Below, in pieces: positions 2,439 to 26,611 of a stretch of DNA of 64,000 nt (position 1 is its first letter; every line of letters starts with the position of its first letter). The DNA comes from Brachybacterium halotolerans. Lineage in GTDB: Bacteria; Actinomycetota; Actinomycetes; Actinomycetales; Dermabacteraceae. A model generated the notes under the pieces. The model searched no databases. It saw nothing but the letters and a program-made list of their open reading frames with translations, and was not told the origin of the DNA. The position numbers and the translations under genes are program-made. The DNA is taken from NCBI RefSeq assembly GCF_016623465.1, contig NZ_JAEDAJ010000006.1, positions 1 to 64,000 of the forward strand. Direction: 5' to 3'.

Positions 2439-3767
2439 ATGACAGGTGACATCGTCATCCTCGCCCTGCTCATCATCACGGCAGTGGCCTTCGACTTCAC
2501 GAACGGCTTCCACGACACCGGCAATGCGATGGCGACGTCCATCGCCACCGGTGCGCTCAAGCCGAAGACCGCCGTCACGCTCTCAGCGATCCTGAACGTG
2601 ATCGGCGGTTTCCTGTCCGTGGAGGTGGCGGTCACCGTCACCACCTCGGTGCTGAAGATCCAGGACACCGACACCGGAGCGCTGATCACGGGCCTCGACG
2701 CGGAGACGGCGATGTTCATCATCTTCGCCGGGCTCGTCGGCGGCATCCTGTGGAACCTCGCGACCTGGCTCTTCGGCATCCCCTCCAGCTCCTCCCATGC
2801 GCTCTTCGGCGGCCTCATCGGCGCCGGCCTCGCGGCCCTGGGCACCGTGGGCATCAACTGGGAGGGACTGATGATTAAGGTCATCATCCCGGCCCTCCTC
2901 TCCCCCTTCATCGCCGGCGCGATCGCCGCGACGGCCGCCTGGCTGGTCTTCCGCGTCACCGCGAACGTGCGCGAGGAGCGCCGTGAGAAGGGCTTCCGCT
3001 ACGGCCAGATCGCCACCGCCTCGCTGGTCTCCCTCGCCCACGGCACGGGCGACGCGCAGAAGACGATGGGCGTCATCGCCCTGGGTCTCATCGCCCACGG
3101 CACCCTCTCCGACCAGGAGATCATCGACAACGGCCTGCCGCCGTGGATCATCATCGTGTGCGCCGGCGCGATCGCCCTGGGCACCTACATGGGCGGCTGG
3201 CGCGTCATCCGCACCCTCGGCAAGGGCCTCGTCGAGCTCGACTCCCCGCAGGGCATGGCCGCCGAGGCGTCCTCCGCGGCGATCATCCTGACCTCGAGCC
3301 ACCTGGGCATGGCACTGTCCACCACCCACGTGGCCACCGGCTCGATCGTCGGCTCCGGCGTCGGCCGTCCCGGCGCCCAGGTCCGCTGGGGCGTCGCCGG
3401 GCGCATGGCCGTCGGCTGGCTGCTGACGCTGCCCGCGGCGGCCGTCGTCGGCGCGATCACCTACTTCATCGGCCACCTCGTGGGCGGGGTCGGCGGCGCC
3501 TTCCTCGTCTTCGCGATCCTGCTGGCCGTCGGCGGGTACATCTACTATCGCTCGCAGCTGCAGAAGGTGGACGCCGGCAACGTCAACGACGAGTGGGACG
3601 AGGGCGCCGAGGCCCCCTCCGCCCTCACTCCCGAGGCCGGCTACGTGCTCGAGACGCCGGCCGAGGAGGTCCGCGCCGCGTCCTCCGCGGCGCCCGCACC
3701 CGCTCCCGCGGCAACGCCCGCGACGACGAAGGTCCCCGTGTCCACGCCGAGCAGGAAGGACTCCTGA
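2439..3767 (+). CDS. pit: PiT-family inorganic phosphate permease
   Basis: 442 residues, multi-pass membrane protein. The two signature PHO4 repeats are present: FDFTNGFHDTGNAMATS near residue 13 and SLAHGTGDAQKTMGVIAL near residue 193. The family imports phosphate, often as a metal-phosphate complex, by proton or cation symport. The ATG at 2439 opens directly into the first helix; an ATG 57 bases upstream would add a non-hydrophobic lead. The last 60 residues are a cytoplasmic Ala/Pro-rich tail. One base separates it from the next small membrane gene. No PhoU/DUF47 partner gene is adjacent, which is unusual. Expression is probably set by the PHO-like repeat upstream. Confidence 0.9.
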   Translation: MTGDIVILALLIITAVAFDFTNGFHDTGNAMATSIATGALKPKTAVTLSAILNVIGGFLSVEVAVTVTTSVLKIQDTDTGALITGLDAETAMFIIFAGLVGGILWNLATWLFGIPSSSSHALFGGLIGAGLAALGTVGINWEGLMIKVIIPALLSPFIAGAIAATAAWLVFRVTANVREERREKGFRYGQIATASLVSLAHGTGDAQKTMGVIALGLIAHGTLSDQEIIDNGLPPWIIIVCAGAIALGTYMGGWRVIRTLGKGLVELDSPQGMAAEASSAAIILTSSHLGMALSTTHVATGSIVGSGVGRPGAQVRWGVAGRMAVGWLLTLPAAAVVGAITYFIGHLVGGVGGAFLVFAILLAVGGYIYYRSQLQKVDAGNVNDEWDEGAEAPSALTPEAGYVLETPAEEVRAASSAAPAPAPAATPATTKVPVSTPSRKDS

Positions 3768-3768
3768 G

Positions 3769-4053
3769 ATGTCCGCAGAATTCATCGAGATCATCACCGG
3801 CACGCTCAAGGTGCTCGGCGTCGGCCTGCTGCTCGGCGCAGGACTGCCCCTGCTCTTCTCGATCGGGATGAAGTTGCAGGACCGCGGCCAGGGCGGCGAG
3901 GAGCGCGACGGCACCGTGATCGCCGCGAAACCCGTGGCGCGAGTGGGCGCCTGGGCCATCTTCGCCGTGGTCGCGCTCGTCATCCTCTACGGTCTGCTGT
4001 TCATCACGAAGGGCAGCCTCGACCACTACCTTGGTATCCAGCTGCCCCTCTGA
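3769..4053 (+). CDS. Small two-helix membrane protein, PiT partner
   Basis: 94 residues with two predicted transmembrane helices (GTLKVLGVGLLLGAGLPLLF and IFAVVALVILYGLLFIT) joined by a charged loop. It starts one base after the PiT stop, so it is almost certainly co-translated. I recognise it as a type of short protein encoded directly after pit genes in actinobacteria, but know of no assigned function. An accessory role in phosphate transport is inferred from context only. Confidence 0.8.
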   Translation: MSAEFIEIITGTLKVLGVGLLLGAGLPLLFSIGMKLQDRGQGGEERDGTVIAAKPVARVGAWAIFAVVALVILYGLLFITKGSLDHYLGIQLPL

Positions 4054-4083
4054 GGGCTTGCGAGATCGAGGGGCACAGGACTG

Positions 4084-5088
4084 ATGAACAATCCGCTGAG
4101 CATGATCCTGAACTGGCTGCGCGTCGGCTATCCCGACGGCGTGCCGCCGAAGGACTTCTACCCGCTGCTCGCCCTCCTCACGCACAACCTGAGCGAGGAG
4201 GAGCTGGAGCGGATCATCCATGATCTCCAGCGCGAGAACCCCGAGGGCGACGTCACCCAGGAGGACGTCCGCGGGGCGATCGGCCGCGTGACCTCGGCAC
4301 CGGTCACGGAGGACCACACCCGCGAGGTCGCCGAGCGCCTCGCCGACGCAGGGTGGCCCGTCGACGAGGAGTCCGCCGAGGTCGCGCGTGCCGTCGCGGC
4401 CGACGGCGGGGTCGAGCGCGTGGACCACAGCCGTCGCGGCGTGCAGGTGGACGCCGCCGAGTCCGACGCCGCTGATGGCACCCGCGAGACCGACGCGGCC
4501 GACGGCGAGAGCGCTCCGCGCTGGACCGCCGAGCCGGCAGACGGCTCCGCGACGATCGCACCCCGAACGAGCGCACCGCAGGCCGCCGACGCCTCGGCGT
4601 CCACGACGCAGGACTCGACCGCACCGGACGACTCGACGGTGCCTGAGGACGCGACGGCCCCTTCGGACGCGGCACCGCTCGCTGACACGGGAGCACTCGC
4701 CGACTCGGCAGCACCGGCAGACGCCGCGGCCGCATCGAGCGCGTCGTCGACCCCTGTGACCTCGGCCCCCGCCTCCGACCTGCCGCCCGCGCCGTCCTCG
4801 AGCACGGTCCAGAGGATCCTCGACTGGCTCTCCGCCGGCTACCCGGCGGGCATTCCGGCGACCGACCGCCTGCCGCTGCTCGCGCTGCTGCGCCGCCAGC
4901 TCACGGACGACGAGGCCCGGGAGATCGCCTCGCACCTCGTGGACGAGGCGGGGCACCGCATCGTCGACCCGACGGATGCCGGCGTCGCGATCACGCGCTA
5001 CACCAACGATCTGCCCACCGAGCAGGAGATGCGCCGCGTCGCCGAGCACCTCGCCGTGCAGGGCTGGCCGCTGGGCGAAAGGCGCTGA
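4084..5088 (+). CDS. Tandem DUF3349 protein with long linker
   Basis: 334 residues. Two copies of the same domain: residues 1-105 (ILNWLRVGYPDGVPPKDFYP, then LLALLTHNLSEEELE) and residues 240-334 (ILDWLSAGYPAGIPATDRLP, then LLALLRRQLTDDEARE), each ending in a helix with AxxGWPx. This is the DUF3349 fold known as single-domain proteins in mycobacteria. The roughly 130-residue linker is acidic and rich in Ala, Ser, Thr and Asp, so probably disordered. It follows the PiT gene pair by 30 bases and may belong to that operon. No function is known. Confidence 0.85.
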   Translation: MNNPLSMILNWLRVGYPDGVPPKDFYPLLALLTHNLSEEELERIIHDLQRENPEGDVTQEDVRGAIGRVTSAPVTEDHTREVAERLADAGWPVDEESAEVARAVAADGGVERVDHSRRGVQVDAAESDAADGTRETDAADGESAPRWTAEPADGSATIAPRTSAPQAADASASTTQDSTAPDDSTVPEDATAPSDAAPLADTGALADSAAPADAAAASSASSTPVTSAPASDLPPAPSSSTVQRILDWLSAGYPAGIPATDRLPLLALLRRQLTDDEAREIASHLVDEAGHRIVDPTDAGVAITRYTNDLPTEQEMRRVAEHLAVQGWPLGERR

Positions 5089-5168
5089 CCGCGCCTCGAG
5101 CACTGTCCCGCGTGCCGCGTGGCGACCCACGCACCCCGCGGCGAGCGCCCGACTCGCCCCGACATGCA

Positions 5169-5202
5169 CGAGCGCCCGATGCCTTGCGGCATCGGGCGCT
5201 CG
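5169..5202. terminator. Bidirectional terminator hairpin
   Basis: A perfect 15-base stem (CGAGCGCCCGATGCC, 5169-5183) with a four-base loop and its exact complement at 5188-5202. It lies between the convergent DUF3349 and GlsB genes, so it can end transcripts from both sides. No T-tract, as is common at high GC. Confidence 0.8.
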
Positions 5203-5260
5203 TCGTTCCGGCGCGGGGTCGGGATGCTCCGCCGGGTCCCGTCATCGGGACCGGGCGGTG

Positions 5261-5545
5261 TCAGGCGCGGTTCTTGGTGACCAGCCCGTAGATGACCATC
5301 ACGATGATCGCGCCGACCACGGACAGCAGGATCGTGCCGATGCTCCACGGGTTGTTCATGATCCCGCTGATGCCGTCGCCGCCGAAGAGGCTGCCGATGA
5401 ATCCGCCGACGATCGCGCCGATGACACCGAGGATGATGGTCATCCCGATGCCCATGGCCTGCTTGCCGGGCAGGATCGCGCGAGCGATGAGGCCGATGAT
5501 GGCTCCGATGATGATCCAGGAGATGATGAGTCCGATGAGACCCAT
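5261..5545 (-). CDS. GlsB/YeaQ/YmgE stress membrane protein
   Basis: 94 residues. Gly-rich three-helix membrane protein: WIIIGAIIGLIARAILPGKQ, then MGIGMTIILGVIGAIVGGFIG, and a last helix ending IYGLVTKNRA. The LARxILPGKQxMG pattern is the hallmark of the transglycosylase-associated (GlsB/YeaQ) family found in general stress responses. AAGGGAAAGGAG precedes the ATG. It is divergent from the large synthetase, sharing a 167-base intergenic region. Confidence 0.9.
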   Translation of the reverse strand: MGLIGLIISWIIIGAIIGLIARAILPGKQAMGIGMTIILGVIGAIVGGFIGSLFGGDGISGIMNNPWSIGTILLSVVGAIIVMVIYGLVTKNRA

Positions 5546-5666
5546 GGGGAAGCTCCTTTCCCTTCGGTCCGCGGGTGCGGACCATGTACGTCACACGATC
5601 TCACATCCCGGGCCCGACGCCGCGCGCCGCGTCCCGTCCGCGCGACGGTGATCCGCTGTTCACCTG

Positions 5667-5680
5667 CTGGTCATGACCAG
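5667..5680. promoter_or_regulatory. Perfect 14-base palindrome upstream of Pls-like gene
   Basis: CTGGTCATGACCAG is its own reverse complement and sits 33 bases before the synthetase start. The TGGT...ACCA core resembles operators of FadR-subfamily GntR regulators. No such regulator gene is adjacent, so the binding protein is unknown. Confidence 0.5.
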
Positions 5681-5712
5681 TACGGTTCTCTCACGTCGCT
5701 TCCGCGATCCGC

Positions 5713-8700
5713 GTGTCCATGGCGGACAATCATGCTGTGACAGCCCCAGAGCCCGCGCTCCTCGCCGGGGACCGCTCCCCCGCGCCCCGCACCCTCGTCG
5801 ACGTCTTCCGCGCGTCCGTCGCCGCCCATGGTGACGCCCTCGCGATCGACACGGGCCTCGAGCCCCTCACCTACTCGCAGCTGGACGCCGCCGCGACCGA
5901 GCTCGCGGGCCGCCTCGCCGCGATCGGCGTGGGCCCCGGCTCCCGCGTGGGCGTGCGCATCACCTCCGGCACCCCCGACCTGTACATCGCGATCATCGGC
6001 ACGCTGCTCGCGGGCGCCGCCTACGTCCCCGTGGACGCCGAGGACCCCGACGAGCGCGCTCGCGTGGTCTTCGAGGAGTCGGCCGTCGCCGCGGTGCTCG
6101 GCGACGATCTCGCGCTCACGCCGACGGGGGCTGCCGACGCGCCCTCCGGAGCACCCGACAGCCCCGTCGAGCCCGTCGCCCCCTCCTCCGAGGACGATGC
6201 CTGGATCATCTTCACCTCGGGATCGACCGGCAGGCCCAAGGGCGTGGCCGTCTCCCACCGCAGCGCCGCCGCCTTCGTCGACGCCGAGTCGCGGCTGTTC
6301 CTGCAGGACGCGCCGCTGGGCCCGGGCGACCGCGTGATGGCGGGACTGTCCGTCGCCTTCGACGCGAGCTGCGAGGAGATGTGGCTGGCCTGGGGCCACG
6401 GGGCCTGCCTCGTCCCGGCGCCGCGCTCCCTGGTCCGCTCGGGGGTCGACGTCGGCTCCTGGCTGCTCGCGAACTCCGTCACTATCGTCTCGACCGTCCC
6501 CACCCTGGTCTCGCTGTGGCCGGACTCCTCGCTCGAGGCCGTGCGCCTGCTCATCATGGGCGGTGAGGCCTGCCCGCCCGAGCTCGCCGCGCGCCTCCAG
6601 GCCCCCGGCCGGGAGGTCTGGAACACCTACGGGCCGACGGAGGCGACGGTCGTCGCCTGCGCCGCGCAGCTCGACGGCGCCGACCCGGTGCGCATCGGCC
6701 TCCCTCTGGACGGCTGGGACCTCGCCGTCGTCGACGAGCAGGGCGAGCCGGTCGAGACGGGAGCCACCGGCGAGCTCATCATCGGCGGCGTGGGGCTTGC
6801 CCGCTACCTGGACCCCGTGAAGGACGCCGAGAAGTACGCATCCATGCCCACCCTCGGCTGGGACCGCGCTTACCGTTCCGGGGACCGCGTGGTCAACGAC
6901 CCGGACGGGCTGCTGTTCGCGGGGCGCGCCGACGACCAGATCAAGCTCGGCGGCCGCCGCATCGAGCTCGGCGAGATCGACGACCAGCTGCTGCGCCTGC
7001 CCGGCGTGGTCTCCGCCGCCGCGGCCGTGCGCTCCACGAAGACGGGCAACAAGCTCCTGGTCGGGTACCTGACGGCCGACGCCACCTTCGACGCGGACGC
7101 CGCCCGCGCCCTCCTGCGCGAGCGCATGCCCGCCGCGCTCGTGCCGCGCCTGGCCGTCCTCGAGGACATGCCCACCCGCACCTCCGGGAAGGTCGACCGC
7201 GACGCCCTCCCCTGGCCCCTGCCGTCGGCCCAGGGGTCCGCGCGCGACCTCGAGGGCACCGCCGCCTGGATCGCCGAGATCTGGTCCGACGTGCTGGGCG
7301 CCCGCGCCACCTCGGTGCGCGACGACTTCTTCGACCTCGGCGGCGGCTCGCTCACGGCTGCGCAGGTCGTCGGCCGGCTGCGGGAGATGCACCCGGAGGT
7401 CGCCGTCGCCGACGTCTACGCGCACTCCACGATCGCCTCCCTCGCGGCCGCGCTGGACGCGATGGGCACCTCGAGCGCCCGCAACGAGGACGAGGCGCCT
7501 CCTCTGCGCCGCGGCTTCCAGACCGCCCAGCTGGTCCTGCTGCTGCCGCTGCGGGCGATCGCGGCGCTGCGCTGGCTCACCTGGCTGATGATCGCCTCGA
7601 GCCTAGCCTCCGGCCTGCTCGGCGTCGCCTGGGCGCCGCCCCTTCCTCTCGCCGTGCTCCTCCCGGCGGCCATCGTGCTCCTCGTGCCTCCCGTGCGGAT
7701 GACCCTCGCCGCCCTGCTCGCGCGGCTGCTGCTCGCCGGGATCCGACGGCCCGGCGCCCACCGGCGCGGAGGCCTCGCGCACCTGCGCCTGTGGTGCGCC
7801 GAGCGCCTCCAGGAGGAGCTCGTGGCGCTCGGTCTGGCGGGCGCCCCCTGGGTCCCGTACTACGCGCGCCTGCTCGGGGCGCGGATCGGGCGCGACGCGG
7901 ATCTGCACGCGCTGCCGCCGGTCACCGGCCTGCTGCACATCGGCGCCGGCGCCTCCGTCGAGCCGGAGGTCGACCTCGCGGGCACCTGGATCGACGGCGA
8001 CACGCTGCACATCGGCGCGGTGCGCATCGGCAAGCGCGCCCGCGTCGGCGCCCGCAGCACGCTGGGACCCGGCGCGCACGTGGGCAGGGACGCGGAGATC
8101 GCTCCGGGATCGGCCGTGCTCGGCGACGTCCCCGCTGGCGAGTTCTGGTCGGGCTCCCCCGCGCGTCGGAAGGCCCGCGCGCGCGGTCCCTGGTCGAGCG
8201 AGCACCCGCACCGCGGGCCGCTCTGGCAGGGCGTGTACGCGCTGGTCGCCCTGGTGATCGCGGCCCTGCCCGCCGTGGCCGTCGTCGCGGGCGCCGCAGT
8301 GGCTCTCCCCGCGATCGCCTCCGCGCCGACCTTCGACGCAGCGGTCCTCGCGGCGCTGCCCTGGCTGCCGCTGTCCGCACTCGTCGGCTACCTCGTGCTG
8401 ATCCTGTTGGTGCTGGCCCTCACCCGGCTGTTCGCGCTCGGCATCCGTCCCGGCCACCACCCCGTGCGCTCCCTGCCGGGCGTGCAGATCTGGGGGACGC
8501 TGCGCCTGGTCGACGAGGCCCGCAGCTGGCTGTTCCCCCTCTACTCGGGTGCGCTCACCCCGCTCTGGCTGCGCGCCCTCGGGGCGCGCGTGGGCAAGGG
8601 CGTCGAGGCCTCGACCGTGCTGCTCATCCCGAGCCTCGTGCAGGTCAGCGACCACGCCTTCCTGGCCGACGACACCATGGTGGGCCCCTACGAGCTCGGC

Positions 8701-9615
8701 GGCGGGTGGATCCGCGTGGAGCGGGTGAAGGTCGGCAAGCGCGCCTTCGTGGGCAACTCCGGCATGCTCGCCCCGGGACGCAAGGTCCCCAAGAAGTCCC
8801 TGGTCGCGGTGCTCTCGGCCGCGCCCCGTCGGACCTCGGCGAAGGCCGGCGGCTCCTGGATGGGCAGCCCGCCGCGGCGGCTGCGCCGCGCCGGGAGCGA
8901 GGCCGACGAGTCCCGCACGTACGCGCCCTCCCGCAGGCTGCGGATCTTCCGCGGGATCGTCGAGACCTGCCGGATCCTGCCGATGATGCTGGCCGTGGTG
9001 CTGTGGGCCGCGGTCGGCGCGACCCTGCTGATCCTCGTGGCCCGGCACGGGCTCGGCGCCGCCGTGCTGCTGGGCGGGCCGGTGCTGCTGGCCGGCTCGG
9101 TCGCCGCCGCAGTGGTGTCCGTGGCCGCGAAGTGGCTGATCGTCGGCCGGCATCACGAGGGCGAGCACGGGCTGTGGACGTCGTTCGTGTGGCGCAATGA
9201 GCTTGCCGACACCTTCACCGAGGTGCTGGCCGCACCGTGGTTCGCGCGCGCCACGACCGGTACGCTCGCCCTGAACTGGTGGCTGCGCGCGCTCGGCGCC
9301 CGCATCGGCCGCGGCGTCTGGTGCGAGTCGTACTGGCTGCCCGAGACCGACCTCGTCGAGCTCGGCGACGGCGCGACCGTGAACCGCGGCTGCGTGGTGC
9401 AGACCCACCTGTTCCACGACCGCGTGCTCAGCATGGACACGGTCGTGCTGGCCGAGGGCGCGACCCTCGGCCCCGGCAGCGTGATCCTCCCAGCGGCGCG
9501 GATCGACCGGCATGCGACCGTGGGCCCGGTGTCCCTGGTGATGCGCGGCGAGAGCGTGCCCGCGGGGACGCGCTGGCAGGGCAATCCGATCGGACCGTGG
9601 GAGGACGACGCATGA
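5713..9615 (+). CDS. Pls/PosA-type single-module synthetase
   Basis: 1300 residues, close to the length of epsilon-poly-L-lysine synthetase. Order: adenylation domain (about 20-500; FTSGSTGRPKG, D217 of the FDAS motif, NTYGPTE at 304-310, GRRIELGEID, K493), carrier domain (DDFFDLGGGS, S546 as phosphopantetheine site), then three membrane blocks (from about 600, 840 and 1090) alternating with three left-handed beta-helix hexapeptide domains (about 716-820, 955-1045, 1193-1296). This is the Pls layout, in which the tandem C-terminal domains link amino-acid monomers at side-chain amines. There is no condensation or thioesterase domain of normal NRPS type. My reading of the specificity residues is D-A-E-S-I-G-T-V-V-K, with an acidic residue in the pocket, suggesting a basic monomer such as lysine (inference). 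ATG starts at 5713 and 5719 (Met1 and Met3) are both possible. Confidence 0.85.
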   Translation: MSMADNHAVTAPEPALLAGDRSPAPRTLVDVFRASVAAHGDALAIDTGLEPLTYSQLDAAATELAGRLAAIGVGPGSRVGVRITSGTPDLYIAIIGTLLAGAAYVPVDAEDPDERARVVFEESAVAAVLGDDLALTPTGAADAPSGAPDSPVEPVAPSSEDDAWIIFTSGSTGRPKGVAVSHRSAAAFVDAESRLFLQDAPLGPGDRVMAGLSVAFDASCEEMWLAWGHGACLVPAPRSLVRSGVDVGSWLLANSVTIVSTVPTLVSLWPDSSLEAVRLLIMGGEACPPELAARLQAPGREVWNTYGPTEATVVACAAQLDGADPVRIGLPLDGWDLAVVDEQGEPVETGATGELIIGGVGLARYLDPVKDAEKYASMPTLGWDRAYRSGDRVVNDPDGLLFAGRADDQIKLGGRRIELGEIDDQLLRLPGVVSAAAAVRSTKTGNKLLVGYLTADATFDADAARALLRERMPAALVPRLAVLEDMPTRTSGKVDRDALPWPLPSAQGSARDLEGTAAWIAEIWSDVLGARATSVRDDFFDLGGGSLTAAQVVGRLREMHPEVAVADVYAHSTIASLAAALDAMGTSSARNEDEAPPLRRGFQTAQLVLLLPLRAIAALRWLTWLMIASSLASGLLGVAWAPPLPLAVLLPAAIVLLVPPVRMTLAALLARLLLAGIRRPGAHRRGGLAHLRLWCAERLQEELVALGLAGAPWVPYYARLLGARIGRDADLHALPPVTGLLHIGAGASVEPEVDLAGTWIDGDTLHIGAVRIGKRARVGARSTLGPGAHVGRDAEIAPGSAVLGDVPAGEFWSGSPARRKARARGPWSSEHPHRGPLWQGVYALVALVIAALPAVAVVAGAAVALPAIASAPTFDAAVLAALPWLPLSALVGYLVLILLVLALTRLFALGIRPGHHPVRSLPGVQIWGTLRLVDEARSWLFPLYSGALTPLWLRALGARVGKGVEASTVLLIPSLVQVSDHAFLADDTMVGPYELGGGWIRVERVKVGKRAFVGNSGMLAPGRKVPKKSLVAVLSAAPRRTSAKAGGSWMGSPPRRLRRAGSEADESRTYAPSRRLRIFRGIVETCRILPMMLAVVLWAAVGATLLILVARHGLGAAVLLGGPVLLAGSVAAAVVSVAAKWLIVGRHHEGEHGLWTSFVWRNELADTFTEVLAAPWFARATTGTLALNWWLRALGARIGRGVWCESYWLPETDLVELGDGATVNRGCVVQTHLFHDRVLSMDTVVLAEGATLGPGSVILPAARIDRHATVGPVSLVMRGESVPAGTRWQGNPIGPWEDDA

Positions 9616-9643
9616 AGGGACGCAGCGTGAAGGGATTCGGCGC

Positions 9644-10975
9644 ATGAGGGAGCACGGCGCGCACGCGCACGACGGCGACGGCGCGGACCCCTACGTCCCG
9701 GGGCACGGCGACCGCTCCTTCGGAGTCGAGCACTACGACCTCGAACTCGTCTACAAGGTCGACACCAACCGGCTCGAGGGCGAGGCGACGCTGCACTGCC
9801 GCGCCCTCGCGGAGGCGGACTCGATCCATCTGGACCTGTACGGTCTGAGCGCCCAGAAGGTGCAGGTCGACGGGCGCGCCGTGAAGACCACCCACCGCTC
9901 CGGCACGCTCACCGTGCGCACGCCGATCGCCGCGGACCAGAAGTTCGTGCTGCGGGTGAAGTACTCCGGCACGCCGCGCCCGGTGCCCTCGCGGGTGCTC
10001 GGCGCGACCGGCTGGGAGGAGCTGACCGACGGCGTCATCGTCTCCGCGCAGCCCCACGGCGCGCCCTCGTGGTTCCCCTGCAACGACCGGCCCGACGACA
10101 AGGCGACCTACACGCTGCGCCTCGGCGCCCCGCCGGACTACTGGGTCGCCGCCGCGGGCGAGCTCGAGGGCACGCGTCGCCGCAGCGCGGTCACCACGTG
10201 GACCTACCAGCAGCGCGTGCCCATGGCCACGTACCTGGCCACGGTGCAGATCGGCCGCTACTCCCCCGTCGACATCGCCCGCGCCGACGTGCCCGTGCGC
10301 ACCCTCGTCCCGCTGGGCACGACCCCGGACGACCTGCTCGGCTCCTTCGCCCGCCAGGGCGAGATGCTCACCTTCTTCGCCGAGCTCTTCGGGCCCTACC
10401 CGTTCGCCTCGTACACGGCGGTGATCACCGAGGACGACCTCGAGATCCCGCTCGAGTCGCAGGGCCTCTCGACCTTCGGCGCGAACCTCGTGGACACCGA
10501 CTGGGAGTCGGTGCGCCTGATCGCCCATGAGCTCTCCCACCAGTGGTTCGGCAACGCCGTCACCCTGTCCGCGTGGAAGGACATCTGGCTGCACGAGGGC
10601 TTCGCGTGCTACTGCGAGTGGCTGTGGGCCGAGCGCTCCGGCGTCTCCAGCGTGCAGGCCGAGGTCGAGAAGCACCACGCCCTGCTCGCCGAGCTCCCCC
10701 AGGACCTGCTGCTCACCGATCCCGGGCCCGAGCTCATGTTCGACGACCGGGTCTACAAGCGCGGCGCCCTCACCGTGCACGCCCTGCGGATGCGCGTGGG
10801 CGACGGCGCGTTCTTCGCGCTCCTCCGCTCCTTCCTCACCGAGCACACCGGCGGGAACGTCACCACCGCGATGCTGCTCGAGCACGCGGAGCGCGAGAGC
10901 GGACAGGAGCTCGGGGACCTCGCCGGGGCGTGGCTCGAGTCGCTGCCGCTGCCGGAGTGCCCGCGACCGGCCTGA
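9644..10975 (+). CDS. M1 family zinc aminopeptidase
   Basis: 443 residues. Zinc site HELSH at 295-299 plus the third ligand E318 in LHEGFACYCEWLW (HExxH-x18-E), with the upstream substrate-binding region in FAELFGPYPFASYTAVI and exopeptidase-like residues before it. It lacks the C-terminal ERAP-like domain, as in short actinobacterial M1 enzymes. The start is linked to the synthetase: an 11-codon ORF (9612-9647) begins within the synthetase stop as ATGA and ends at this gene's own ATGA, which suggests translational coupling. Possible role in trimming peptides or a polymer made by the synthetase, but this is inference; it could equally be housekeeping. Confidence 0.87.
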   Translation: MREHGAHAHDGDGADPYVPGHGDRSFGVEHYDLELVYKVDTNRLEGEATLHCRALAEADSIHLDLYGLSAQKVQVDGRAVKTTHRSGTLTVRTPIAADQKFVLRVKYSGTPRPVPSRVLGATGWEELTDGVIVSAQPHGAPSWFPCNDRPDDKATYTLRLGAPPDYWVAAAGELEGTRRRSAVTTWTYQQRVPMATYLATVQIGRYSPVDIARADVPVRTLVPLGTTPDDLLGSFARQGEMLTFFAELFGPYPFASYTAVITEDDLEIPLESQGLSTFGANLVDTDWESVRLIAHELSHQWFGNAVTLSAWKDIWLHEGFACYCEWLWAERSGVSSVQAEVEKHHALLAELPQDLLLTDPGPELMFDDRVYKRGALTVHALRMRVGDGAFFALLRSFLTEHTGGNVTTAMLLEHAERESGQELGDLAGAWLESLPLPECPRPA

Positions 10976-10987
10976 TCCCACGCGGAC

Positions 10988-11023
10988 GTGCGTCGGGCCG
11001 ACGGGGCGCCTCGGGCGACGCAC
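10988..11023. terminator. Candidate bidirectional terminator
   Basis: GTGCGTCG (10988-10995) pairs with CGACGCAC (11016-11023) around a 20-base GC-rich loop, between the convergent M1 peptidase and phosphopantetheinyl transferase genes. The stem is only eight pairs, so support is moderate. Confidence 0.4.
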
Positions 11024-11030
11024 CGCGGCA

Positions 11031-11555
11031 TCACAGCCGCGCGCAGGCGATCACGTGCCCCGGCGGAGCCGGCAGGTCCTCGATGTCGAAGTCGGCGAGC
11101 GCGATCGTGGGCATCGCGCGGGCGAGCCCGACGCCGAGCGCCTTGAGAACCGCCTCTTTGCCCGCCCACAGGCGCGCGCGATCCTCCGGCGTCCGATCGA
11201 GCCCGCGCTCGCTGGGGTGCAGCACGAGGTCGGGCGACCACAGCCGGTCGACGGCGGCGACGGACTCGATGTCGACCCCCACGGGGCCCTCACGTCGCAC
11301 GGCCGTGACCAGATGCGCGCCGGAGCGGGAGATGCTCACGGGGATATCGGACGCGGCACCGATGCGGGCCCAGGGCCGGCCGTGCGCCGAGGAGCCGCAT
11401 CGCGGGCAGTGCCGACCGGTGCGCACCGCCGCCTCCTCCACGCCGCAGGTCTCGGCGATGCGCGCGCGCAGGATCGCATCGGCGTCGTCCTCGGCGCGAT
11501 GCAGGGTGACGAGCGGGGACTCGTGACGGTGCTGGTGGGCGGCGGGAGCGGTCAT
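11031..11555 (-). CDS. Sfp-type 4'-phosphopantetheinyl transferase
   Basis: 174 residues. Conserved transferase motifs: GVDIES for metal binding and LWAGKEAVLKALG, the W-x-x-K-E-A-x-x-K signature. An upstream ISRSGAHLVTAV segment matches the P-fold strand seen in the family. It moves phosphopantetheine from CoA to a serine of carrier domains. It is short for an Sfp type. Convergent with the M1 peptidase and less than 1.5 kb from the only carrier domain in the window (S546 of the Pls-like protein), so that protein is its likely substrate. A CPRCG cysteine pair near residue 50 is an added feature. Confidence 0.85.
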   Translation of the reverse strand: MTAPAAHQHRHESPLVTLHRAEDDADAILRARIAETCGVEEAAVRTGRHCPRCGSSAHGRPWARIGAASDIPVSISRSGAHLVTAVRREGPVGVDIESVAAVDRLWSPDLVLHPSERGLDRTPEDRARLWAGKEAVLKALGVGLARAMPTIALADFDIEDLPAPPGHVIACARL

Positions 11556-11578
11556 GGCCGCCCCAGAATACGGGCCGC

Positions 11579-11902
11579 TCAGATGTCGTCCTCGCCCGCG
11601 GGGCCGCCCTCGTTCTCCCAGTTCTCCAGGCGGGTGACGGTGCGCGGGTTGAACTTCTGGCGCACGCCGTAGCCCACGCCGGCATGCTCGTCCACGGGCA
11701 GCAGCTCGACGCCGAACTCCGCGAAGGCGCGGTGCAGCAGGTCGCTCTCCTCCGCCGTGGCGAGGATCCGTCCCTGCTCGATGGCGCGCAGCCTCTCGAG
11801 GTCGATGTCGGTGTGCTCGGCGAGATCGGCGAGCGAGACCTGGGCGAGAGCCCGAGCCGCACGGGCCAGATCCGCAGTGATCAGGGCCTCTTGCGTGTTC
11901 AT
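11579..11902 (-). CDS. XRE-family HTH regulator
   Basis: 107 residues. N-terminal helix-turn-helix (about 8-65: LARAARALAQVSLADLAEHT, then LERLRAIEQGRILATAEESD), then a short strand EFGVELLPVDEHAGVGYGVRQKF and an acidic tail. The C-terminal piece resembles a motif that often follows XRE domains in small repressors. ATG at 11902 is chosen because codons upstream are non-conserved, although GGGAGG lies a long 14 bases away. Its target is unknown; it lies between the transferase and nrdF. Confidence 0.75.
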   Translation of the reverse strand: MNTQEALITADLARAARALAQVSLADLAEHTDIDLERLRAIEQGRILATAEESDLLHRAFAEFGVELLPVDEHAGVGYGVRQKFNPRTVTRLENWENEGGPAGEDDI

Positions 11903-11953
11903 GGCACCACTGTGGACCTCCCGCGCGCAAAGCACCAGTGCCCATGATGCGAA

Positions 11954-11988
11954 AGGCCCGGCCCGCAGAAGGCTGCAGGTCCGGGCCT
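11954..11988 (-). terminator. Terminator after nrdF
   Basis: AGGCCCGG (11954-11961) pairs with CCGGGCCT (11981-11988), with an inner GCAG/CTGC extension. On the minus strand the stem is followed by TTTC, downstream of the nrdF stop at 12039. Confidence 0.65.
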
Positions 11989-12038
11989 CGCGTGCGCGCC
12001 GTCGGCGGGGATCCCCGGCGACGTGCGCGGTCAGCGGA

Positions 12039-15229
<3,191 letters not shown>

Positions 15230-23787: not shown

Positions 23788-25920
23788 TCACAGCATGCAG
23801 CTGACGCAGCCCTCGACCTCGGTGCCCTCGATCGCCATCTGCCGCAGGCGGATGTAGTAGAGGGTCTTGATGCCCTTGCGCCATGCGTAGATCTGCGCCT
23901 TGTTGACGTCGCGCGTGGTGGCGGTGTCGGGGAAGAAGAGCGTGAGGCTCAGGCCCTGGTCCACGTGCTTGGTGGCCTCGGCGTAGGTGTCCACGATCTT
24001 CTCGTAGCCGATCTCGTACGCGTCCTGGTAGTACTCCAGGTTGTCGTTCGTCATGAACGGCGCCGGGTAGTAGACGCGGCCGATCTTCCCCTCCTTGCGG
24101 ATCTCGATCTTGGAGACGATCGGGTGGATCGACGAGGTCGAGTGGTTGATGTAGGAGATCGACCCGGTCGGCGGGACCGCCTGCAGGTACGCGTTGTACA
24201 TGCCGTGGGCCTTCACGTCCTCGCGCAGCTGCTTCCAGTCGTCCTGGCTGGGCAGGTGCACGTTCGAGTTCGCGAACAGCTCGCGGACCTTCGCGGTGCG
24301 CGGCTCCCACACCTCATCGGTGTACTTGTCGAAGTACTCTCCGGTCCCGTACTTCGAGTTCTCGAAGTCGTAGAACGTCTCGCCGAGCTCCTTGGCGAGC
24401 CCCATGGAGGCCTTGATGGCCTGGTAGGTGACCGCGTAGAAGTACATGTTCGTGAAGTCCAGGCCCTCGTCGGACCCGTAGTAGATGCCCTCGCGCGCCA
24501 GGTAGCCGTGGAGATTCATCTGCCCCAGGCCGATCGCGTGGGACTTGCGGTTGCCCTCCGCGATCGTGGGCACGGACTCGATGTCCGAGGTGTCCGAGAC
24601 CGCCGTCAGCGCGCGGATCGCGGTGCTGATCGTGCGCTCGAAGTCCGGGGAGTCCATCGCCTTGGCGATGTTCAGCGACCCCAGGTTGCAGGAGATGTCG
24701 CGACCCATCTCGTCGTAGGTAAGGTCGTTGTTCATGTGCGACGGGGTCGCGACCTGCAGGATCTCCGAGCACAGGTTCGAGTGGGTGACCTTGCCGGCGA
24801 TCGGGTTCGCCCTGTTCACCGTGTCCTCGAACATGATGTACGGGTAGCCGGACTCGAACTGGATCTCCGCGAGGGTCTGGAAGAAGTCGCGGGCCTTGAT
24901 CTTCTTCTTCGCGATCCGCGGGTTGTCGACCATGTCGCGGTAGTTCTCGGAGATCGACACATCCGCGTACGGCTTGCCGTACTCGCGCTCCACGTCGTAC
25001 GGGGAGAACAGGTACATCGGCTCGTTGTTCTTCGCGAGCTCGAAGGTGATGTCGGGGATCACGACACCCAGCGAGAGGGTCTTGATGCGGATCTTCTCGT
25101 CCGCGTTCTCGCGCTTGGTGTCCAGGAACCGCATGATGTCCGGGTGGTGCGCGTGGAGGTACACCGCGCCCGCGCCCTGACGCGCACCGAGCTGGTTCGC
25201 GTAGGAGAAGGAGTCCTCGAGCAGCTTCATCACGGGGATGACGCCGCTGGACTGGTTCTCGATGTGCTTGATCGGCGCACCGTACTCGCGCAGGTTCGAC
25301 AGCAGCAGGGCGACGCCGCCGCCGCGCTTGGACAGCTGCAGCGCGGAGTTGATGCCGCGGCCGATGGACTCCATGTTGTCCTCCATGCGCAGCAGGAAGC
25401 ACGAGACGAGCTCGCCGCGCTGGGCCTTCCCGGCGTTGAGGAACGTGGGGGTCGCGGGCTGGAAGCGGCCGTCGAGCACCTCGTCGACGATCCGACGGGC
25501 CAGCTCCTCGTCACCGCGGGCGAGGGTCAGGGCCACCATGACCACGCGGTCCTCGAAGCGCTCGAGGTACCGCTTGCCGTCGAAGGTCTTCAGCGTGTAC
25601 GAGGTGTAGTACTTGAAGGCGCCCAGGAACGTCGGGAAGCGGAACTTCTTCGCGAAGGCCTGCTCCGACAGCTCCTCGACGAAATCGAAGGAGTACTGGT
25701 CCAGCACCTCGGCCTCGTAGTACTCGTTCTCGACGAGGTAGTCGATCTTCTCCCGCAGGGAGTGGAAGAACACCGTGTTGGGGTTCACGTGCTGCAGGAA
25801 GTACTCACGGGCGGCGAGACGATCCTTGTCGAACTGGATCTTCCCGTCAGCCCCGTAGAGGTTCAGCATCGCGTTCAGCGCGTGATAGTCGAGGGACTTG
25901 TGATGCTCCACCGAAGGCAT
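23788..25920 (-). CDS. nrdE: Class Ib ribonucleotide reductase, alpha subunit
   Basis: 710 residues, large catalytic subunit that reduces ribonucleoside diphosphates. Marks: the first active-site Cys in [40 protein letters not shown] with the thiyl-radical Cys, [18 protein letters not shown], and the redox tail EGCVSCML, which is recharged by NrdH. ATG at 25920 taken; earlier in-frame TTG codons overlapping nrdI are possible. It begins within a few bases of the nrdI stop (25926), so nrdHIE is one unit. nrdF lies about 11 kb away. Confidence 0.96.
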
Positions 25921-25925
25921 CTCGG

Positions 25926-26324
25926 TCAGTGTCGCCAAAACTCTTCCAATCCGTCGTGGACCTGCTGCACGTCTCGCGGCGTGCCCAACAGCTCGAACCT
26001 GTACATGTGCGGGACCCGGCACTTCGCCGAGATGATCTCGCCGGCCAGGCCGTAGGCCTCGCCGAAATTCGTGTTCCCCGCGGTGATGACTCCCCGGATC
26101 AGATCCCGGTTGCGTTCGTCGTTGAGGAACTTGATGACCTGCTTCGGGACTGCTCCGCGTCCGTTGCCGCCGCCATAGGTCGGCACCATCAGCACGTACT
26201 CCTCGTCCATGACGAGCGGATCCTCCGTGCGATGGAGTGGGATCCTGCTGGCCGGCATGTCCAGCTTCTGCACGAAGCGATGGGTGTTGCCGGACACGGA
26301 GGAGAAGTAGACGAGGGTTCCCAT
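25926..26324 (-). CDS. nrdI: NrdI flavodoxin-like protein
   Basis: 132 residues. Family marks: [18 protein letters not shown] at the N terminus (FMN phosphate loop) and [33 protein letters not shown]. NrdI supplies oxidant for assembling the manganese-tyrosyl radical cofactor of NrdF. ATG at 26324 with GGAGGTGA eight bases upstream; a GTG three codons before it lies inside that site and is unlikely. Second gene of nrdHIE. Confidence 0.94.
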
Positions 26325-26353
26325 CCTCCTCACCTCCGCATGATCGGGAGCGC

Positions 26354-26611
26354 TCAGATGGCTGCGGCGCGGGCGCCCTCGGCGCCGGCGGCCGCAACGG
26401 CCTTGATCTTGTCGGGGCGGAAGCCCGACCAGTGGTCCTCACCGGCGACCACGACGGGCGCCTGCACGTAGCCCATCGACTTCACGTGGGCGAGCGCCTC
26501 GGCGTCCTCGGTGATGTCGACGACGTCGTAGTCGACGCCCGACTTGGTGAGGGCGCGCTTGGTCGCGTCGCACTGGACGCACATGGGCTTCGAGTACACG
26601 GTGATGGCCAT
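26354..26611 (-). CDS. nrdH: NrdH glutaredoxin-like electron donor
   Basis: 85 residues. Redox motif CVQC near residue 11 ([16 protein letters not shown]) and the C-terminal WSGFRPDKI, typical of NrdH, which donates electrons to NrdE and is itself reduced by thioredoxin reductase. ATG at 26611 follows GAAAGG. First gene of the nrdHIE operon; the NrdR-like boxes lie about 170-220 bases upstream. Confidence 0.95.

Follow-up and report, generated by a model that had tools for sequence, protein, structure and literature searches.

Background

Epsilon-polylysine is an antimicrobial polymer and an approved food preservative. Genes for its synthetases (Pls) are widespread and often silent outside Streptomyces; for the enzymes of S. 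albulus and C. variabile it is established that monomers are joined through their side-chain amines and that the product is released outwards. According to published accounts, S. albulus pls shares an operon with pldII, which it overlaps by 4 bp and which encodes the main degradase (PMC4361855), and work on repression treats PldII as a means of self-protection and reports it outside the membrane (PMC9223678). The paper on C. variabile Pls describes epsilon-polylysine production in S. coelicolor and silence both natively and in C. glutamicum, and already lists coryneform genera with Pls plus a peptidase (PMC8117764), and another study reported NAPAA clusters in every C. glutamicum strain that it covered (PMC11078359); in our C. 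glutamicum control genome, TIGR02353 likewise scored above its cut-off. A locus combining Pls with a peptidase is, in short, a well-described type.

A synthetase, a peptidase and a convergent transferase

The window, a 64,000-nucleotide stretch of the Brachybacterium halotolerans genome, carries a pls gene at 5713..9615 (+) and, starting 28 bp behind it in the position of pldII, a gene for an M1 metallopeptidase of 443 aa (9644..10975, +; PF01433 and PF17900). Less expected at such a locus is the gene that adjoins them in convergent orientation, which encodes an Sfp-type phosphopantetheinyl transferase (PPTase) of 174 aa (11031..11555, -; PF01648). Judging from sequence comparisons, we consider it highly likely that the three genes specify an epsilon-poly-L-lysine synthetase, a peptidase that degrades its product, and a PPTase dedicated to the synthetase.

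The pls frame encodes 1300 residues, opens with GTG at 5713, the earliest start available (the ATG two codons downstream is also usable), and has the codon-position GC content of a real gene (0.76/0.54/0.95). Its product is a member of the Pls/PosA family: TIGR02353 matches residues 605-1293 with 684.3 bits (curated cut-off 423.1), and the adenylation (A) domain is identical to that of epsilon-poly-L-lysine synthetase (PDB 7WEW) at 321 of 488 positions (65.8%), the E-values of 1.9e-205 and 2.1e-191, respectively, excluding chance. The A domain occupies residues ~30-500 (5800..7212, +; PF00501, TIGR01733) and is followed by a carrier (thiolation) domain (7267..7455, +; PF00550, 50.7 bits), with the codon for Ser546 at 7348-7350, and by a C-terminal polymerising region (7525..9591, +). 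Pfam recognises a single AMP-binding domain (residues 32-364) and a single PP-binding domain (residues 519-581, including Ser546), and a Pfam scan at E <= 0.001 found neither a condensation nor a thioesterase domain. Ser546 is conserved in 100 of 101 aligned family rows, the remaining row having a gap, and two Microbacterium loci encode proteins 56-57% identical to this Pls. The initial annotation had described a 1300-residue protein with one A domain, one carrier domain (S546), three membrane/beta-helix blocks and no condensation domain, with an M1 peptidase close behind and an Sfp-type transferase on the opposite strand; all of these elements are borne out by the domain searches, and its comparison of the layout with that of epsilon-poly-L-lysine synthetase agrees with the TIGR02353 score and the A-domain identity to 7WEW.

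That the gene might be nonfunctional or permanently silent in its host is suggested by C. variabile Pls, for which no product was obtained in the native host (PMC8117764). The 1300-aa frame is, however, intact, Ser546 and His1232 are both kept, and the copies in two sister genomes are 94-96% identical, so that we attach very little credence to this view. Nevertheless, since the C. variabile enzyme was silent natively as well as in C. glutamicum, production by a functional locus may stay unseen in culture.

Substrate pocket and expected product

The specificity-conferring residues are D217, A218, E221, S260, I281, G283, T305, V313, V314 and K493, reproducing exactly the string DAESIGTVVK read in the initial annotation, and all ten are shared with 7WEW, as befits its description of an acid-containing, lysine-like pocket. 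The comparison with characterised Pls and PosA enzymes that it had proposed yields 642 bits against 7WEW vs 181 bits against PosA, the ornithine enzyme. Because of the 65.8% A-domain identity and the identical pocket, lysine is the expected monomer, and the product of this putative synthetase is very probably epsilon-poly-L-lysine, which upholds and narrows the earlier reading of a cationic homopolymer. Of the 101 aligned family members, 96 have the same pocket, one has a different pocket, and four are unreadable or partial there.

The different one belongs to a locus from another family (L045) and reads DFEYNGTVTK; moreover, the PosA study describes Pls/PosA-family polymers of other diamino acids and variation in their A-domain pockets (PMC10522769), and both points would fit a relative polymerising ornithine, diaminobutyrate or beta-lysine. 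Against this, the complete agreement with the 7WEW pocket (10/10) includes the Ala at position 2, which the same study ties to the length of lysine, and Met to ornithine (PMC10522769); the PosA score lies far below that for 7WEW; and of the synthetases compared in PMC8117764, the one for lysine has a PldII-type neighbour and the three others lack one. We regard a different diamino acid as very unlikely and set it aside on the identity of the pocket to that of 7WEW. The L045 protein itself (2617-6639 of its contig, from the same order) is 35% identical to the window Pls and probably uses another monomer, as judged from its pocket.

The C-terminal region

Hydrophobic groups at residues ~607-675, 835-914 and 1078-1126 alternate with three beta-helix-like blocks (C1, C2 and C3), which are homologous to one another (hhalign probability 98-99%). 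By hydropathy only, seven hydrophobic segments exceed the threshold, which we counted as agreement with the six transmembrane helices typical of the family. A profile of the region produced weak matches to hexapeptide (left-handed beta-helix) acyltransferases and to gamma-carbonic anhydrases, and a pseudo-threefold model is already in print for PosA (PMC10522769). In the internal repeat alignment, the motif QTHLFHDR (residues 1230-1237; 9400..9423, +) is restricted to C3, and its His1232 is conserved in 100 of the 101 rows, the last having a gap. Since the motif is retained in C3 alone, each pseudo-trimer may possess one active site, in which C3 would supply the single catalytic histidine, His1232 being the candidate.

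The M1 peptidase

The peptidase carries HELSH at residue 295 and has no obvious signal peptide by eye. Its distribution within the host genus coincides exactly with that of Pls: both occur in 16 of 38 genomes, and these are the same 16. Outside the genus, every locus of the 80 best of at least 575 confirmed relatives has an M1 gene downstream of pls in the same orientation (80/80, each scoring at least 557 bits); in this best-80 set its end is a median 1.3 kb past the pls stop, and 1.9-3.5 kb past it in 6 loci. By position and family, it would thus be the PldII-type partner that degrades the polymer. In one genus locus (L036, genome G023), both pls and M1 are broken into two frames apiece, due to either sequencing error or decay; the assembly is listed as 85% complete.

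Linkage of the PPTase within the genus

The PPTase matches PF01648 with 43 bits (cut-off 25), carries the GVDIE and WAGKEAVLKALGVGL motifs, and has D95, E97, E134 and K138, from the Mg and CoA motifs of the ACPS fold, conserved in 31-32 of 32 rows. The source genome encodes two PF01648 proteins; it has two carrier domains, one in Pls and one in a small carrier protein, and its second PPTase is of another type, beyond the reach of the Sfp-type profile. If the PPTase next to pls served some other carrier protein and its position were incidental, the only other carrier found would be this small protein, for which the second PPTase is available.

We surveyed 38 genomes of the host genus, of which 16 have Pls and 22 lack it. 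In 16/16 Pls genomes a PPTase lies beyond M1 on the opposite strand, at a distance of 53-401 bp in 15 and of 5.7 kb in the remaining one (G003), whereas the Pls-lacking genomes have a second PPTase in 6 cases, one PPTase in 14 and none in 2, both incomplete (Fisher p 4.6e-6 for a second PPTase, a test that ignores kinship). By hand count, PPTases and carrier systems are equal in number in 35 of the 38 genomes; the rule is broken by two incomplete ones (G005 and G006) and by G008, which has an extra small carrier and one PPTase only. Two genomes (G043 and G017) have Pls, an NRPS frame of ~3550 residues and three PPTases, one of them beside Pls and one beside the NRPS, which also speaks against an incidental neighbour. 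A tree of 39 PPTases separates six NRPS-linked sequences, as a 100/100 clade, from those linked to Pls, with deeper forks being weak; a seventh NRPS-linked PPTase (L131) has a very long branch, falls in with the Pls-linked sequences, and is either misplaced or divergent. Pls and PPTase distances correlate weakly (r 0.24, Mantel p 0.048; 12 genomes, near-copies removed), as might be expected if the PPTase worked for another carrier.

The survey yielded several further observations. NRPS frames of ~3500 residues with three carriers occur at L126-L130 and L134 (genomes G043, G017, G016, G038, G046 and G018), and in 5 of 6 the frame has its own PPTase alongside on the same contig, the two being on different contigs in G018. 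Genome G028 harbours two more partial TIGR02353 matches (L019 and L021) in addition to its full Pls, and at L043 a frame 24% identical to part of the window Pls (11213-12907, -) is located ~3.4 kb past the pls stop.

Empty sites

The locus is flanked on the left by a gene for a Transgly_assoc (PF04226) membrane protein (5261..5545, -) and on the right by a gene at 12039..13010 (-), which we take to be nrdF, coding for the ribonucleotide reductase small subunit; both are outside the three-gene block, and the nrdF homologue neighbours the block in the genus, being on the PPTase side in 11 of the 15 genus loci with Pls that were retrieved, as in the window. We compared the nrdF neighbourhoods of 8 Pls-lacking genomes, from 9 searched, and found the left-flank gene separated from nrdF by 231-298 bp in 7 of 8, and by 1.5 kb in the other (L138). 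No M1 or PPTase match is present at the nrdF neighbourhood in any of the 8. From these empty sites and flank positions, comparison shows that pls, M1 and PPTase share a single chromosomal site in the genus, which carries either all three or none, and they look like one unit. The nrdF DNA tree, which is poorly resolved, suggests several changes of Pls presence: there are 5 on the best tree, at least 2 of them forced by supported branches, and the Pls label is unclustered (99 of 500 shuffles gave as low a count).

A small HTH gene between the PPTase and nrdF (11579-11935) was considered as a regulator of the locus and rejected: among the genus loci, it precedes the PPTase gene in the window and the latter's near-copies L029 and L039 alone, and its homologues elsewhere sit away from the PPTase. 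In the window, nrdF and nrdE (23788-26442), of a class Ib ribonucleotide reductase, are ~11 kb apart, with transporter and regulatory genes between them.

Linkage beyond the genus

Outside the genus, we used loci of other actinobacteria, the 80 best of at least 575 confirmed relatives from a genome_contigs scan, with near records left out. A profile search covering all six-frame ORFs of 85 loci produced 17 PPTase matches, 16 of them in the 80 loci of that best-80 set and one in L044, and all are convergent and immediately past M1. The profile was iterated and retrained on its own matches, and the late members L114 and L119 rest partly on motifs; in an independent regular-expression scan of the same 85 loci, 10 of 10 motif-bearing ORFs were likewise in position past M1. 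The link is distributed unevenly among orders: within the best 80 of at least 575 relatives, none of the 46 Mycobacteriales loci has it, against 14 of the 28 assigned to other named orders and 2 of the 6 for which no order is given. The 14 of 28 non-mycolate loci that lack it include Nocardioides and Intrasporangiaceae. Of the 16 PPTases from outside the genus, only 6 exceed the Pfam cut-off; another 9 reach 13.6-23.4 bits, L119 having such a sub-threshold ACPS match, and L114 retains the PPTase motifs with no Pfam ACPS match. These low scores may be the reason why the link has gone unremarked.

The evidence for an incidental neighbour can now be weighed as a whole. The PPTase is encoded on the strand opposite to pls, and thus outside its operon, the pairwise distances are weakly correlated, and, within the flanks covered, no PPTase neighbour was detected in 64 of the 80 outside loci (best 80 of at least 575). 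On the other hand, the position is kept in 16/16 genus genomes and in 16 of those best 80 outside loci, and 17/17 profile matches in the 85 loci occupy it. Carrier counts, genus linkage, outside loci and the PPTase tree lead us to set the incidental neighbour aside as unlikely, and there is good evidence, from genomic linkage, for a PPTase dedicated to this Pls as its putative activator. The suggestion of a natural activator in the initial annotation is therefore supported by linkage, carrier and PPTase counts, the PPTase tree and the empty sites.

A few records deserve separate mention. A metagenome-assembled genome labelled Bifidobacterium breve (L094) has a Pls-M1 locus 55% identical to that of the window, possibly as a result of a binning error. 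Pls-family genes are also found on plasmid records H3-H11 (Mycobacterium, Kitasatospora and Rhodococcus), and 32 plasmid-collection records matched. A phage origin of the locus was discarded, as none of 78 pattern matches in viral_contigs encodes a relative.

Proposed mode of action and significance

Our preferred reading of the locus, with a dedicated PPTase, would operate as follows. The PPTase would attach the phosphopantetheine arm to Ser546, after which the A domain, to judge from its identical pocket, would activate L-lysine with ATP and load it onto the arm. The membrane-embedded C-terminal domain would then link lysines via their side-chain amines and export the polymer outwards, and the M1 peptidase, given its position and family, would trim or destroy epsilon-polylysine, probably for self-protection, like Streptomyces PldII.

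More generally, we lean towards the view that pls, a PldII-type peptidase and a private, fast-diverging PPTase make up an all-or-none cassette, Pls needing the PPTase where no general Sfp-type enzyme exists. Such a need could explain silent heterologous pls genes. The terms phosphopantethein and PPTase do not occur in the C. variabile Pls paper (PMC8117764), nor do the passages covered of PMC4361855, PMC13291983, PMC11078359 or PMC4302092 describe a PPTase beside pls, and a literature search, which covered few subscription papers, found no published description of one. While the synthetase itself is one further member of a well-mapped family, knowing the PPTase that activates Pls would provide a concrete missing part for expressing pls elsewhere, and turns the matter into a testable question.

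Comparison with known systems

PosA, the delta-poly-L-ornithine synthetase of Acinetobacter baumannii, belongs to the same protein family and shares the C-terminal region, but has Met where the window Pls has Ala at pocket position 2, with ornithine as substrate, and forms a single-gene operon without peptidase or PPTase (PMC10522769). The Pls of C. variabile and other coryneforms has the same architecture and peptidase neighbour as the window, and the product made in S. coelicolor by the C. variabile enzyme was epsilon-poly-L-lysine (PMC8117764). Streptomyces Pls (7WEW; pls-pldII operon) resembles the window locus in its A-T arrangement with a three-block membrane C-terminus, in the M1-type peptidase behind it, and in an A domain with 65.8% identity and an identical pocket. 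It comes from a different genus, and its genes overlap by 4 bp (PMC4361855) where the window has 28 bp between pls and the peptidase gene; to this arrangement, the window adds a convergent PPTase.
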